Made by a program: the position numbers and the translations under genes
Part shown: piece after piece, positions 21,113 through 43,977 of the stretch
Layout of the letters: each line of letters opens with the position of its first letter
Position numbering within the stretch: the stretch's first letter is position 1
Origin: Herpomyces periplanetae
Taxonomy: Eukaryota; Ascomycota; Laboulbeniomycetes; Herpomycetales; Herpomycetaceae
DNA length: 64,000 nucleotides
NCBI GenBank assembly: GCA_009733715.1
Contig: WMKJ01000013.1
Location: 117,657 to 181,656 of the forward strand
Direction of reading: 5' to 3'
The notes under the pieces: generated by a model
The model's input: the letters and a program-made list of their open reading frames with translations, nothing else
What the model was told of the DNA's origin: nothing
Databases searched by the model: none

Positions 21113-22693
21113 ATGGAATCAGCTCTTAATATTACAGATAATGAACCGAATAATATAACTAATCCCTGGATTGATTCGTTCATAGTATCTGCACCAGGCA
21201 AAGCAATAATTTTCGGAGAACATGCCGTAGTTCATTTTCAGGTTAGCACGGAAACTGCCATAACGCGATTCTGTTTCATTGATCTTGCCACTTCACATTA
21301 ATACTGATAGCAAAACGTTAAGCCGGCTATTGCAGCTTCTATTTCCTTGCGTACATATGTGCTTGTTCGATCTAACCATGAAACTTCGCCAATCGTACGC
21401 TTATATTTTCCTGACATTAAGTTTTCATTATCATGGAACTCCGTCAACTTACCGTGGAAAGAGTTTGGTCGACTACAGGAAAATATTGAATCACTAAAGC
21501 CAACTAACACGTTAAACGTTCAACATCTTAAGTTAATTCAGCCGTTCATAGTTAACGCACTAAAAAATGCCACGGAAATTTGCATTAAAACGTTCACCTC
21601 AGCTGCCACAGCTTTCTTGTTACTTTTCATGTACCTTGGGAAGCCTTATTGCTCCAATACGTTTATTATTCGTTCATCACTTCCAGTTGCGTCAGGCCTT
21701 GGTTCAAGCGCTTCGTTATCCGTTAGCTTAGCTTGTGCATTGTTAATACTTAACGGTCAAATCAGCCCGCCTAAGTCGTCCAGTCCATCAGATGAATCTA
21801 CCGCCCACTCAAACTTGATTAATGCGTGGGCCTACATTTCCGAAATGTGTTATCACGGAAATCCGTCAGGGATCGATAATACAGTTGTGTGCTTTGGTAA
21901 AGCTGTTTACTTTAAGCGTAATGCAGAAACTGGATCTTCAAACATACGTTGGATGGCCAATTTTCCGAGACTGCCCTTTATCATAACAAATACCCGCCAA
22001 CAACGGTCAACGGCGGATCTCGTGCGCCGTGTGACTTTGTTAAAAGAGACATTTCCTGCCATCGTAGATAAACTCTTCGAAGCAATCGGAGATGTAACCG
22101 AGAAAGCTTATTTACTACTAACACAGCACGCGGGTCCCGTAAATACGTCTTTAATTCATTCATTAGGAAAGCTAATGGTAATCAATCATGGGTTACTAGT
22201 TTCACTTGGCGTATCACATCCTCGAATTGAACGAGTGCGTGCCGCAATTGACTTTTGCGATAAAGGATGGTCAAAACTAACGGGAGCGGGTGGGGGAGGC
22301 TGCGTGATTTCACTTATTCGCCAAGAAATGTACCCTGTCCCAGATCGTCCCGCGGAAATGAATCATGAAGCAGAAGGAGAAAGTGAACTTATGCTAACGG
22401 CTCTGAAATCGTGTAATCCGTTTACCGAATCACAGTTGGCCAGGATAATGCTGGATCTCATGAAAGAAAGTCTTGAACCGCAAGAAGTTATGGTTGGTGT
22501 TGCGGGTGTAGGAATACTTACACCTAACTGCAGTGAGGAGTCAGGAAGAATTAAGAGTATCGACCATGAGTTATTTGTACAATGCACTGATATATCTTGT
22601 CTTTATGAACCCAAAGGCATAGAAAAGATAGATCTTAACACATCAGAATGGTCTTGGAAGCACTGGCAGCGTGAAAGTTATGCAGAGGTGTAA
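21113..22693 (+). CDS. ERG12: Mevalonate kinase
   Basis: Two exons, 21113-21241 and 21323-22693, giving about 499 residues. The enzyme phosphorylates mevalonate with ATP in the sterol/isoprenoid pathway (GHMP kinase family). The N-terminus has VSAPGKAIIFGEHAVVH; GHMP motif 2 is PVASGLGSSASLSVSLACAL near residues 165-180; HGNPSGIDN follows near 230; the glycine-rich motif 3 TGAGGGGCVISL is near 363. The intron has an unusual GTTAGC donor. I favour the acceptor AAG|CCG at 21322, which makes HFQPAIAAS in register with the family HGKPAIAAS; a TAG at 21310 would add four residues. The frame is open upstream to 21035, so an alternative start 26 codons earlier is possible. Confidence 0.96.
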
Positions 22694-30272: not shown

Positions 30273-31353
30273 TCACTCAACTGCGCTTGAACACGAAACG
30301 CTAATCGACTGTAAACCTGGGCCAGAATAATCGCAATCTGGTAAGTAAAGATGACGCTGTGCGCCTTTGGCCGAAAGCACTACCATTCTAATCACACCAC
30401 CGGAACTTCCGTCCCACTTGATTGCTTCACAAAGTGCTCCTTTGACAAAGTTAATAGCATCTTCTTCGCTCATGTTCTCTCGCCAATTGGCATCACAATA
30501 TCCGTAGATATACGTCGATCCCGAGCCTCCTATAGCGTAGGATTGCTGGTGTAAAGAGCCACCCAGCGGGATAGCGTAAACAGAGCCGCCGTATTCCTTG
30601 TCGTAGCCTGCGATAATTAACCCCGCGCTGGAATTGTAGTCGGTTAATGTATGAATGACAAAGAGTACGGAACACTGATTAGATCAACACTTACCTTAAC
30701 ATACCGCGATTGGCGTAGCAAAATTCTTGAAACACGGCAGCAGCAATTTGTGTAGTCGGCGGGGTGCCGTTGTTTATAGCATACATGTTCATATGATAAC
30801 GAACCACATCAGCTACGGCTTGTGTATCAGCCGCTGAACCCGACCGACAGCACCATATGGTATCGTGAATTTGTGTTAACTTATCCGTTACACGATTTGC
30901 GATATACGCGCCCGTCGTAGTACGTGAATCCGCGCCAAGTATAACTCCATCACGGAAGTTGACCGCGATACTATTGAGTAATTAATAGCGTGAAAGTGCT
31001 ACGATTTGTCCCGCCGCGTAGATGCGCAAGTGTGCACATGCACATACTTACATTGAAGTTCCCAGACTGTGCATACGAGTAGGGACGTACGATTGCCGTA
31101 GTGATTAGCCAGGATAACTGTAGGTGTGAACGTGTACAATGTGCACACGTACAGAACTTGACTTACTTAACCTCTCCCTGCTTGAGATGGTTCATGTCAA
31201 CGTGAATTCCGTCTAGCGTAATCGCAATTAAAATGTAAGTTAACGTTAACTTTGTTTCACGGGAAAGCATGTATGCGCATCCGCACGTACACCTTTAGGA
31301 GTTATACATCCTCACGTTTACTTACCCGCTGAAAGTGTGCCTGCTACGGCCAT
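30273..31353 (-). CDS. PRE3: 20S proteasome subunit beta-1 (caspase-like activity)
   Basis: Five exons in transcript order: 31326-31353, 31167-31212, 31052-31066, 30695-30970 and 30273-30627, giving 239 residues. All four introns have GTAAGT-type donors and AG acceptors, and every junction restores conserved sequence. Pre3 forms the caspase-like (post-glutamyl) site of the 20S core. The propeptide ends at Gly27 and the mature enzyme starts at Thr28 within LGTSIIAVNF. Downstream are [52 protein letters not shown] and [17 protein letters not shown], all near-identical to the family. The third exon is only 15 nt. The protein is slightly longer at the C-terminus than yeast Pre3. It is divergent from the uS13m gene across 366 nt. 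Confidence 0.98.
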
Positions 31354-31719: not shown

Positions 31720-32216
31720 ATGTTTTCTGTATTTTATTGTGCATACGGTCAACTAATTTACACGGTACAGGTTTTCATACTCGGAGTTCCATTTGCAGAT
31801 AGTCTGCTAGTGAGGGTATGTTAGTGGCAAAGTTAAACGATTGAGTTAACATGATAGAGCAAACGTTTAACATATAGGCGTACGCGCAATGCGTATAGAA
31901 AGCTTTACAAAAATTTTACGGTATAGGAGTTCATACAAGTGAACAAATCATGGCACGCCTGTATATACATCCAACGGCAAAGTTAAGCATGTTGGGAGAT
32001 TCGGCATTGCGCAGTTTAAACGCCGAGTTAACGAGAATGAAACTGGATAGCGATACGCAAGCACGAAATCGGTTGCGTGACCGGTTACGTGAAATGAAGG
32101 ATATTGGATTGTACAGGGGCAAACGTCACGCCATGGGCTTACCTGTACGCGGACAACGGACACGATCCCAGATCAGCACAGCGCGAAAGCTAAATCGTAT
32201 CGAACGAGCTGGATGA
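31720..32216 (+). CDS. SWS2: Mitochondrial small-subunit ribosomal protein uS13m
   Basis: Three exons, 31720-31728, 31771-31815 and 31899-32216, give 123 residues. uS13m sits in the head of the mitochondrial small ribosomal subunit. Exon 2 encodes VFILGVPFADSLLVR, matching the family start; exon 3 begins KALQKFYGIGVHTSEQIM and ends with the diagnostic GLYRGKRHAMGLPVRGQRTR followed by a basic tail NRIERAG. Both introns are phase 0. The first coding exon is only three codons (MFS), before a 42-nt intron with a CTAAT branch and ACGGTACAG acceptor; without it the frame also stays open, adding YCAYG... residues, so the start is the least secure part. Confidence 0.92.
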
Positions 32217-34861: not shown

Positions 34862-36267
34862 ATGGGCAAAATGCAAATGTTTCTTACGTTTTTCTTACTT
34901 TTTGTTTCGACCGCTTTAGCGGTCGGTCCAAAAATCACTGATAAAGTAGGCTTAACATTTCATGCTTTTTGGCTTTTTTAATTATCATATTTGTTTGTTC
35001 CCTGATATCTTTCACTAATCATTACACTTCATCATACCTTTACCTTAGGTTTATTTTGATATGAAACACGGTGATGAAAATATCGGTCGCATTGTCGTCG
35101 GTATTTATGGGAAATCATTACCTCGCGTAAGTTTTTCTCGTACTTTACCACTACTGCTGATGTTACCACAATCTAATCGTAGCGGTAGCGGTCACTAAAC
35201 TAGTTTATCCACGTTGTTTTTACGTTAATACATCTTTGCTAACTAAACGATTTTCTTGTACAGACTGCGAAGAATTTTGTGTACGTTTAATTATCTTTTA
35301 ATCACATATACTCGATAACTCATTCATCTCTTATACACATTCTCGTGGTGTATTTTTGAGTAATGTATACTGTATAGTACCTTGGCGAATAAACCTCAGG
35401 GTGAGGGTTATAAAGGCAGTAAATTTCATCGAGTTATCAAAGGCTTCATGATTCAAGGTGGTGATTTTACCAAAGGTGATGGCACGGGTGGTAGATCAAT
35501 TTACGGTGACAAGTTCAAAGATGAGGGCTTCAAATTTAAACACAGCAAACCTGGCATGCTAAGTATGCACTAATTACCCTTCCGTCTTATCCATGGCGAT
35601 CCTTGCTGCGTTTTCGCATGATTTTTTTCCCAAGTCAACTCCACTCATCAATTTTACCTTTTCATTAACTTTCACCCTAAATCATCGTCTAGGTATGGCT
35701 AATGCGGGTCCTGACACAAATGGGAGTCAATTCTTCATTACTACGGCTGCGGCTCAATGGCTTGATAATCTTCACGTTGTGTTCGGCGAAGTCATGGAGG
35801 GTTATGATGTTGTTGATAAAATTGAAAATTTACCCACCGATCAAGGGGATCGCCCGATCAAAGATGTGGTCATCGCGGATAGCGGCTCTCTAGACGTTCC
35901 CCCTGAAGGTTTGCGCGCCGAATTGTAATTCTGTTTTATCATACCCGTCTCCTTAAATTTTTTCATGTTACCCCCTTCCCCTCAACACCATGGCCATTTA
36001 TTCCTTAAATTTATCATGTTTACCGTAATATGTTCATTGGTTTTCAATACTTCCATTAATTCACCCCTAATTACCTAAATCATCCTTTTTCGTCTTCCAG
36101 GTATCCCCGGGACTGCTCAACCCCAAAATGCCGACTTCACTGAACCCGACGCCGCCGCTCTAATCGATACTGACCCAGGTTTAACGTTCTTTCAGAAAGT
36201 ATCCTACACCAGTGCTATATTTGTCCTTTTATTCATATTTTTGCGTTTGCGCAAGCTGCTTCGTTAG
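34862..36267 (+). CDS. cypB: ER cyclophilin (peptidyl-prolyl isomerase), two possible C-termini
   Basis: Exons 34862-34945, 35049-35126, 35264-35280 (17 nt), 35378-35562 and 35693-35928 give a 199-residue protein. It starts with a signal peptide ([20 protein letters not shown]). The isomerase core has [54 protein letters not shown] and the conserved Trp in [12 protein letters not shown]. This form ends PPEGLRAEL, an ER-retention-like [KRH]xEL tail. Alternatively, splicing from 35908 (GAAG|GTTTGC) to a well-formed acceptor at 36100 (TTTTTCGTCTTCCAG) adds exon 36101-36267, giving 248 residues that end with an acidic linker, a hydrophobic span ([11 protein letters not shown]) and RLRKLLR. Both lengths are whole codons. 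The role would be proline isomerisation during folding in the ER. Confidence 0.96.
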
Positions 36268-36931
36268 TCTCAGATTGGGCATCCCTACTGTATAACTTGA
36301 CCCCTCGTACGCCGTTCCTACTCGTCTTCGCACTTGCAAATATCCCCCGCACGAATTCTTTTGCATGCACGCACGCCTGCACGCGCTTTTCTTTTCATGT
36401 GCACCCGTTAATGCTGGGTCTCACCCTCTGCGTAGCTAATTTCAATCATCTCTACATTTCACTACATGCAATTAACCCGCCATCCCACATTTAAAAACTT
36501 CACGCCATCTTCTACCGATTACTCGATTCAAGGTACAGTATTCTTTGATACACAGTTGCTCTGCCCATCTCCGACAATGCCACACATATTTACAACGTAC
36601 GAAGCTACAAGACGTGAAAAACGTGCGAAACGCAACTCTAAACGAAAATCTTCAAAACAAAATTCTCCAACTTCGCAAGCCGCGCGCCCGTCTCTCCATA
36701 AACTTTCTGGCAAGATATTGGCGGAGATGCATAATTTAATAACATCTCATATGTCCCCTAGAAAACCATACCTCATTTCTATCGAACAATCTACCCGCTC
36801 CACTCCCGTCCAATTTCCAGTCAAAATTCCAATTACGTAGATCCTTTTTAACCACACATCAACCTTAATGACATCCACCTATTCATTCATTACTGCTGTT
36901 ACGATGACAATCCCCTTAGGTGCTTAATTAT
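36268..36931. other. Convergent intergenic region, cyclophilin / DED1
   Basis: About 660 nt between two 3' ends. A 124-codon rightward frame (36466-36840) with a basic middle (RREKRAKRNSKRKSSK) is open but matches nothing I know; see findings. Nothing else is evident. Confidence 0.4.
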
Positions 36932-41349: not shown

Positions 41350-43977
41350 ATGTCAAAATCGTCCAAATCTTCTCCTACTACACTTTCTCTGCTTCCTGAG
41401 AACCTGAAAACCAGTGGAAATTCCGCCTCTAATTCCTCTCTTATCCTCACCGCTTCATCGCACAACTTACCATCCCCTTTTCAGGCATCTGATCAACACG
41501 GCGAATCATCGTCGAAAGATTCCCTTCCGTGGAATAATGCATCATCTTCATCCTCTCTCTCCTCAACAACAACAACACTGGCAACTACAAGTACAACTAC
41601 ACCGTGTTCTAAATCTGCCACAAGCATGAATTCAACTACTCCTGACCCTTCAGATACTAATAAGCCCACTACATTGCCTAATACTCGATGTGGAAATGCT
41701 AAAACCACCAGCAGAACTTCGAAAATCGCCCGCGGGAAAAATTCATCCATAAATTGCAAAGTTAATAACTCGGATAACTCTACGTCAAGATCAGCTTCAT
41801 GTACAGCAACTCTAGTTGCCTCACCTACCGGCCAGTCTTCTAGCAATGCTTCAGCCAAGAACCCATCGGAAACAGCTGGAGCTGGTCTCGGTCATTCCGC
41901 TAAACGAGTTGCTTCAGCACCCACGGATTCTGCCAGTGGCGGATCTGGCCTGAGTGTATCGAGTAATAAAATGCCTCACTTAAAAAAGGAAGATGGTTTT
42001 CCCCTATGGCGCCGGGATATTCAATACGACTTCCTTAAATATGTCTTCGAAAGTGATCAACGAGTCTTTCGAAAACCTGGAAATGATAAAGCGATGTATA
42101 CATTTGCCGACCTTTACATTGATTGTATGGCCTCGAGCAGTAAATGTAGTCGCATTTTACAAGATAAATTACTAATGGTTCGTTCTGCTGCGATAAACAT
42201 GGCCAAAGTCTGCTTGCTAGTTAACGTTGGACGAATGAATACCACACTCAACTTCTTCCCCGAAATGAGAGCCCAACTAAGAACTTACCATTCCATTCCC
42301 TCTCTCCAAGCGCATCAAGATGCCAACTCATACAAGCAACTACAAGATGCCCCGCGACTTAAATCAATATTAAAGGGTGCCGTAGAGGATACTCAACAAC
42401 CCACAACGTTAGATGAGCTTGCCCTTCTGCCTGCCCCACGGTCAAATCCCGTTAGCTTAATCTTTCTACTTACTCAATATGCGCCAAAAGTGTCTGCCCT
42501 TCATTTCGACTCATCACGAGATTTATTTGATTTAATCATGATGAATAAACTAAGCAGCAGAAGTCGGGCCCAAGCGTTTCTTTGGTTAATGTGGTGGTAT
42601 CTGGAAAGTGACTTTAGCAAAGAGAGTGCTCTAAACAATCCTTTTGGTTCAGGTCGCTATGGCGACTATCCATTACATTTACCCATCAAATGTCCTGAAT
42701 TTGAATACCTTACTGACAAGGAAGCTGAAAAAGAAAACGTTGATACAGCAGATGAATTGGAGTTTGGAGAACAAAAACGTCTTGAGAGACTTGTATTGCT
42801 ATGTTCTCGTGGTGAGGAAGCCATAATGGATTCGAGCGATCGAAGGCTTGATATTACCCCCGCAAGTCGTCGTGAGGGAAGTAGTAGAAAAAGTTTGGGC
42901 AATGGAAAACGTGGTGCATGGGAAGAAGGTGCGCCTACATGGAATGAATGTGGATCTGGAGAATCAAGTATGATTGGAACGGAAGATGTTGGCGGAAACA
43001 ATGGTGTTGAGGGAGAAGGGTTAGGCAAAGGCAATCATGTTCAAAAACGAGCACGGGGACGAAGTAGCTATCAACTGGCTGTGGAAAAATATCGGCAAGA
43101 GAAGACTAAACATTCACTAGATCAACAGCTTCGAATATTATATCGGAGGGTTGGCCGAAAACGAAATATGGAGGGACTACTATTACGATGTTGGATGCGA
43201 TTGAAGGATGAGAAGCTTTACAAGATTAAGGTTGGAGAAGATGAAATTTTAGGGGGTTCAAATTATGATTCCGAAGAGGAGAGGCCAGATGTGCTCGGTG
43301 GTTTTATGAGTATTGGAGGCCTATTGCCAGCGACCTGGGAACTGGAAAATTTACCGGATGATGGTAGGGCAGTTCGGATTACTGGATCGATGGAATTAAA
43401 AGGGAACGGTAGAAGAGGAAGTGCCAATATTTCTAGTGGAAAAGCTGAGTTGTCAGCCCCAATTGATTGGGGGGAGGAAGCCTATAGTATAGCACAAGGA
43501 CTCCGAAGATGTCAACGTCGACTGCGACGGTGGATTTTTGGTGAAGAGAATGTTACGAGTAATGAACAGGGTAAAGGTGATAAGTTGACTGGGGAGAAAA
43601 AGATGGATAAACTTATCGAGAAAGGTGTTAAAAGTGTACGACTAAGAGCTGAAAAGGGAAGCCTACGTCAATCGAACAACGGTACTGCCACGGGAGGCAA
43701 AGGTCGAAAACGAACTATCAGTGGATCCACTTCGCGAAAACGGACTAAGCTCAGTAAAACGAGTGCAAATGATATAACGACAACAGAAGAAGAAAATGCG
43801 GGAGGTTCAATTGAGCCGAAAGTTGGTGAACAAGATGAGACCTTTCTAAACGAAGACGGGGATGGCCTCAACACCTCAATAGTGAAAGCTGAAGTTGGTG
43901 GTGCCGAGATTATAGCGGAGTCTGATGGCGAAAGAATGGTTGAAGAATCTAGTGATGTTGTAATGGAGGGAATATGA
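41350..43977 (+). CDS. IES1: INO80 chromatin-remodelling complex subunit Ies1
   Basis: One exon, 875 residues. Ies1 is an ascomycete-type subunit of the nuclear INO80 remodeller. The conserved core, residues ~207-435, is plain: MPHLKKEDGFPLWRRDIQYD, TFADLYIDCMASSSKCSRIL, INMAKVCLLVNVGRMNTTLN, FPEMRAQLRTYHSIPSLQAH, then LIFLLTQYAPKVS and AFLWLMWWYLESDFSKESAL with NNPFGSG. The first ~200 residues are Ser/Thr-rich and low-complexity; the C-terminal ~430 are charged, with several basic nuclear-localisation-like clusters (RKRTISGSTSRKRTK) and an acidic end. The ATG at 41350 follows a long pyrimidine leader. It is convergent with ISM1. Confidence 0.92.
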   Translation: MSKSSKSSPTTLSLLPENLKTSGNSASNSSLILTASSHNLPSPFQASDQHGESSSKDSLPWNNASSSSSLSSTTTTLATTSTTTPCSKSATSMNSTTPDPSDTNKPTTLPNTRCGNAKTTSRTSKIARGKNSSINCKVNNSDNSTSRSASCTATLVASPTGQSSSNASAKNPSETAGAGLGHSAKRVASAPTDSASGGSGLSVSSNKMPHLKKEDGFPLWRRDIQYDFLKYVFESDQRVFRKPGNDKAMYTFADLYIDCMASSSKCSRILQDKLLMVRSAAINMAKVCLLVNVGRMNTTLNFFPEMRAQLRTYHSIPSLQAHQDANSYKQLQDAPRLKSILKGAVEDTQQPTTLDELALLPAPRSNPVSLIFLLTQYAPKVSALHFDSSRDLFDLIMMNKLSSRSRAQAFLWLMWWYLESDFSKESALNNPFGSGRYGDYPLHLPIKCPEFEYLTDKEAEKENVDTADELEFGEQKRLERLVLLCSRGEEAIMDSSDRRLDITPASRREGSSRKSLGNGKRGAWEEGAPTWNECGSGESSMIGTEDVGGNNGVEGEGLGKGNHVQKRARGRSSYQLAVEKYRQEKTKHSLDQQLRILYRRVGRKRNMEGLLLRCWMRLKDEKLYKIKVGEDEILGGSNYDSEEERPDVLGGFMSIGGLLPATWELENLPDDGRAVRITGSMELKGNGRRGSANISSGKAELSAPIDWGEEAYSIAQGLRRCQRRLRRWIFGEENVTSNEQGKGDKLTGEKKMDKLIEKGVKSVRLRAEKGSLRQSNNGTATGGKGRKRTISGSTSRKRTKLSKTSANDITTTEEENAGGSIEPKVGEQDETFLNEDGDGLNTSIVKAEVGGAEIIAESDGERMVEESSDVVMEGI

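Follow-up and report, generated by a model that had tools for sequence, protein, structure and literature searches.

Isomerases bound to the membrane of the endoplasmic reticulum (ER) and genes that switch between soluble and membrane products at their last intron are each known already; a cyclophilin B gene that combined the two would be a new variation. The gene considered here lies at 34862-36267 on the forward strand of a 64,000-nt stretch of Herpomyces periplanetae contig WMKJ01000013.1, which was analysed as a whole (hereafter the window). It is a cyclophilin B (CypB) gene that has six exons if its last intron, intron 5, is removed. The papers cited are represented by the parts of their text that were accessible, and the comparisons drawn from them are limited to those parts.

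Among ER cyclophilins, Drosophila NinaA is described as an integral membrane peptidyl-prolyl isomerase (PPIase), and the membrane-bound product proposed below is likened to it by description, although NinaA is an animal photoreceptor protein and the accessible text mentions no short soluble form of it (PMC2568879). Fungal cyclophilins B (Group G of Pemberton 2006; PMC1618848) share the cyclophilin domain of the present protein and carry an ER signal at the N-terminus, where the present protein has a signal-like hydrophobic sequence, but the accessible rows for this group give the PPIase domain only and leave a membrane anchor unmentioned. In the same survey, yeast Cpr4 (Group H), likened here by description, is an ER cyclophilin that carries a putative transmembrane domain, and its group is restricted to Saccharomycotina. 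Human FKBP11 carries a signal peptide, an isomerase domain and a C-terminal transmembrane region, but belongs to the FKBPs and not to the cyclophilins (PMC9027113).

The choice between a soluble and a membrane form at a terminal or internal intron, made by splicing versus poly(A) site use, is described for the IgM heavy chain and for soluble VEGFR-1 (PMC5546720, PMC7554721). Fungi relocate proteins through intron retention or splicing, as reported for PTC7 (PMC3597508) and for peroxisomal isoforms (PMC4207609); one form of yeast PTC7 has a membrane helix that is encoded by a kept intron near the N-terminus, an intron without a stop (PMC3597508). The first-pass annotation of this locus had proposed an undescribed arrangement, which goes too far, as IgM, soluble VEGFR-1 and PTC7 use similar logic. 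For an isomerase or a cyclophilin, no case of soluble and membrane forms produced through intron retention was found in the literature searched, most subscription papers lying outside it. If exon 6 is used, the gene would encode a cyclophilin B that carries its own membrane anchor, a feature unmentioned for its group in the accessible part of the fungal survey (PMC1618848). If both endings are used, the IgM-type choice would be extended to an ER folding enzyme.

A cyclophilin B gene and its two candidate endings

Introns 1-4 were located through spliced alignment to human cyclophilin B (Table 1). Without removal of intron 5, the exon 5 frame runs through GLRAEL to a TAA at 35926-35928 and yields a protein of 199 amino acids, while a phase-1 GT-AG join from 35908 to 36101 keeps the frame open and yields 248. 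Exon 6 then consists of two bases finishing a Gly codon, 54 codons and a TAG, and the last base of its acceptor AG, 36100, is 172 nt 3' of the exon 5 read-through stop. The final codons of the short form contain the donor, which makes the two endings mutually exclusive. On re-reading of the sequence, all coordinates of the first-pass annotation, together with its 172-nt gap, 54 codons and 248 residues, proved exact to the base.

The Pfam cyclophilin domain (PF00160) was found on residues 31-184 of the joined protein (E 3.5e-49) and is complete in both the 199-residue and the 248-residue forms. The best PDB match, 8k0f (E 2e-74), is a PPIase B chain; PPIase B and PPIase 5 account for the top matches among PDB sequences, and CypA chains rank much further down. 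Identity to human CypB was 61%, and judged by these sequence matches the predicted protein is closest to CypB among cyclophilins. Its N-terminus is hydrophobic (19-residue maximum of 1.90, by hydropathy only). The 248-residue form has a second hydrophobic peak in its tail, spanning 15 residues (227-241; Kyte-Doolittle 19-residue maximum of 1.77), which requires the join of 35908 to 36101 and is followed by the basic end RLRKLLR.

We regard it as probable that this is a six-exon gene for a CypB-kind protein of the secretory pathway, from which intron 5 is normally removed, giving a type I membrane-anchored ER cyclophilin; the likelihoods worded here for this and other readings are our judgement and not a computed posterior. 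Splicing of intron 5 would be constitutive, and the predicted protein would be ordered as a signal sequence, a luminal peptidyl-prolyl isomerase domain, a short acidic linker, a single membrane span and a short basic cytosolic end. Through the anchor, the isomerase may be kept close to its clients at the membrane of the ER or early Golgi. These clients might themselves be membrane-bound, in the way that NinaA serves rhodopsin (PMC2568879). With intron 5 retained, translation would end in LRAEL instead. In its usual sense, a tail-anchored protein is one without an N-terminal signal. The product had at first been called tail-anchored, a term to be replaced, since the predicted signal-like sequence at its N-terminus would make it a type I membrane protein.

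Splice sites of intron 5 and coding signal in exon 6

The splice sites were compared with those of 13 homology-placed introns of the window, found in the genes for cyclophilin (four), proteasome beta1 (three), an ABHD13-like protein (two), SDHB, a Ste24-type protease, mevalonate kinase and mitochondrial (mt) uS13 (one each). The mt uS13 donor was shifted by hand from the GTTAGT of the aligner to GTATGT, in a gene resembling that for mitochondrial ribosomal protein uS13 (31760-32213, +) whose intron was read as 31816-31898. The mevalonate kinase intron (21242-21322, +) entered the set with an aligned donor and a doubtful acceptor, for which the AAG at 21322 and an AG a few bases 5' of it are the candidates.

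All 13 reference donors had G at +5, and +3 was A in 12 and T in one. With 5.85 bits, the intron 5 donor, AAG/GTTTGC (the slash marking the exon end), fell inside the span of leave-one-out scores of the 13 reference donors (1.15-9.58). It ranked first among the 23 GTs between 35693 and 36100, and 4.2% of the 7398 GTs in the window scored as high or higher; "weak", as the donor had been called, does not describe it. The mevalonate kinase donor CAG/GTTAGC likewise has T at +3. U1 pairing of GTTTGC (-4.9 kcal/mol) was not set apart from that of the 13 others (-1.9 to -10.3 kcal/mol, with a U1 5' end entered by hand). The acceptor at 36100 was the top-scoring AG between 35950 and 36420 (6.95, a score reached by 1.8% of 6955 AGs), with the AG at 36195 second (6.57). 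A branch-like CTAAT lies near the end of intron 5, and other introns in the window have similar motifs, as judged by eye.

Coding signal was measured as periodicity, that is, base position within codons, which is independent of overall composition. The 'noncoding' stretches used for comparison were picked for the absence of long open frames, so that they may contain exons, and their windows overlap one another; exon 6 was divided into a linker and a hydrophobic half after the sequence had been seen. Exons 1-5 gave a z of 5.04. In the joined frame the linker gave a z of 3.65, reached by one of 1678 stop-free noncoding windows, three of 6872 noncoding windows overall and four of 245 coding windows. 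Within the sequence 3' of exon 5, a sliding scan peaked at the window that begins with 36100 and is read in the exon 5 frame.

How often such a tail arises by chance was estimated by keeping the donor fixed and shuffling the 792 nt that follow, dinucleotide composition being preserved. A hit required an acceptor, having both a pyrimidine tract and a branch-like motif, that led into an open tail of at least 40 codons with a membrane-like segment. Such tails appeared in 93 of 5000 shuffles, and also in 126 of 7298 cases when all usable GTs of the window, those of real genes among them, were tested alike. By itself, the membrane-like tail is about a 2% event, and further support for exon 6 comes mostly from the linker periodicity (1 in 1678, with overlapping windows). 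Exon 6 is probably real.

Several other measurements weigh against this six-exon reading. Over the whole of exon 6 the periodicity z was 1.44. Among noncoding windows, 16.3% of the 203 that are stop-free and 8.7% of the full set of 3064 score at least this high; among 118 equally large coding windows, 35.6% score as low. The hydrophobic half gave -1.33, below all 12 hydrophobic coding windows compared. The codon log-odds of exon 6 were 0.029 per codon versus 0.158 in exons 1-5, with 74 of 367 stop-free noncoding windows as high; as a test of coding, this whole-exon measure is inconclusive. Third-position C was 0.35 in exon 6 versus 0.22 in exons 1-5, and the purine content of exon 6 (0.40) was like that of the 3' flank (0.36-0.41), versus 0.52 in exons 1-5. 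None of the 13 reference introns (64-137 nt, mean 96, SD 23) is as long as intron 5 (192 nt). Finally, endings of the form [KRHQSA]-x-E-L, such as RAEL, precede only 6 of the 5128 stops in the six frames of the window, RAEL included. A chance ending of this kind at one preset gene is unlikely, but RAEL was noticed in reading over many genes.

Two alternative readings of the gene end

It is rather unlikely that intron 5 is the site of a regulated switch, in which its retention, or an RNA ending inside it, would give a soluble luminal form of 199 residues ending in RAEL and its splicing the membrane form of 248. That splicing of the last intron of one gene would set the share of free luminal isomerase, retrieved to the ER through RAEL, versus membrane-tethered isomerase is an unlikely proposition in its own right. 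The first-pass annotation had seen in RAEL the look of an ER-retrieval tail. Its third-last residue, alanine, falls outside the quoted pattern [KRHQSA]-[DENQ]-E-L (PMC5588793), which precedes 2 of the 5128 stops (any ..EL precedes 18); the scarcity of [KRHQSA]-x-E-L endings speaks for a switch. Carboxylesterases are retained in the ER through HTEL and HIEL (PMC4624787), so the third-last residue may fall outside the quoted set, which favours a switch. The position of the short-form stop within the last intron and the unusual length of that intron are also consistent with one, as are the sizes of known relatives, seven of the nine signal-bearing ER cyclophilins in the accessible survey text being of 22.6-23.4 kDa, nearer the short form (PMC1618848).

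Against a switch, the splice sites of intron 5 are no weaker than others in the window, RNA folding around the donor shows nothing unusual (z of 0.28), fungal intron retention is said mostly to yield nonfunctional RNA (PMC3597508), and RAEL was spotted post hoc. IgM and VEGFR-1 are animal genes with mapped RNA ends. At the cyclophilin gene, neither AATAAA nor ATTAAA occurs in 35901-36900, be it in intron 5 or after exon 6. This absence is common to both forms and decides nothing between them. Of the two-ending interpretation offered at first pass, the membrane ending is fairly well supported by donor, acceptor and linker, and the switch is the part that suffers from ordinary splice sites and an off-pattern RAEL.

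The other alternative is a five-exon gene that ends at RAEL and encodes a soluble cyclophilin of the ER, in which case the open frame further 3' would be a product of chance in pyrimidine-rich intergenic DNA. The size range of the signal-bearing ER cyclophilins fits it as well (PMC1618848), and the sequence from 35929 to 36900 is purine-poor and G-poor, exon 6 differing little from it. Tails of the observed type turn up in the shuffles at the frequency given above, and a join of the same donor at 35909 to the second acceptor, 36195, also opens a hydrophobic tail (99 codons, Kyte-Doolittle maximum of 1.67). This reading is quite unlikely, for the top-scoring donor, the top-scoring acceptor, an open frame and the linker periodicity (1 in 1678) would all have to coincide.

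Relatives and neighbouring features

In scans of the sets viral_contigs and genome_contigs, no relative with the same gene end was found. The 248-residue protein gave one pattern match in viral_contigs, which was unconfirmed and left no relatives there. In genome_contigs, 43 pattern matches led to a single relative, a 185-residue cyclophilin without a membrane tail on a contig titled as a cyanobacterium. With alignment A1, 74 pattern matches in viral_contigs led to ten loci (L002-L011); A1 loci were read only where the frame holds GSQFF or NGSQFF, and none of the four read at the frame end (L002, L003, L004 and L011) had a similar membrane tail.

Table 1. Features of the cyclophilin B gene, with positions in the window.
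Feature	Position	Strand	Description	Basis
Exon 1	34862..34945	+	signal-like hydrophobic N-terminus	join and hydropathy; end from alignment to human CypB
Exon 2	35049..35126	+	cyclophilin domain	spliced alignment
Exon 3	35264..35280	+	17 nt, cyclophilin domain	spliced alignment
Exon 4	35378..35562	+	cyclophilin domain	spliced alignment
Exon 5	35693..35908	+	end of cyclophilin domain, then PPEG	start from spliced alignment
Donor GTTTGC and alternative ending LRAEL with TAA (intron 5 kept)	35909..35928	+		sequence; donor score
Intron 5	35909..36100	+	192 nt, a multiple of three	acceptor score; length comparison
Exon 6	36101..36267	+	acidic linker, hydrophobic segment, RLRKLLR, stop	linker periodicity, hydropathy

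Self-trained dynamic-programming gene finding predicted too many introns and was dropped, spliced alignment to conserved proteins being used instead. A scan for bacterial promoters and terminators was inapplicable to the cyclophilin gene.

The purine-poor, G-poor stretch 3' of exon 5 (35929-36900, +) lies between the cyclophilin gene and a convergent DEAD-box helicase gene, and exon 6 shares this composition to a slightly lesser degree. An open frame of 106 codons (36174-36494, +) overlaps exon 6 in another frame and is reachable through the acceptor at 36195; it was judged unlike a protein. The window gene at 41350-43974, which has no Pfam match, is presumably Ies1-like. By its gene density and gene content the window looks fungal. 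Very small exons occur twice in the window, namely the 17-nt exon 3 of the cyclophilin gene and a 15-nt exon of the proteasome beta1 gene (31052-31066, -), the latter flanked by introns of 100 and 81 nt.
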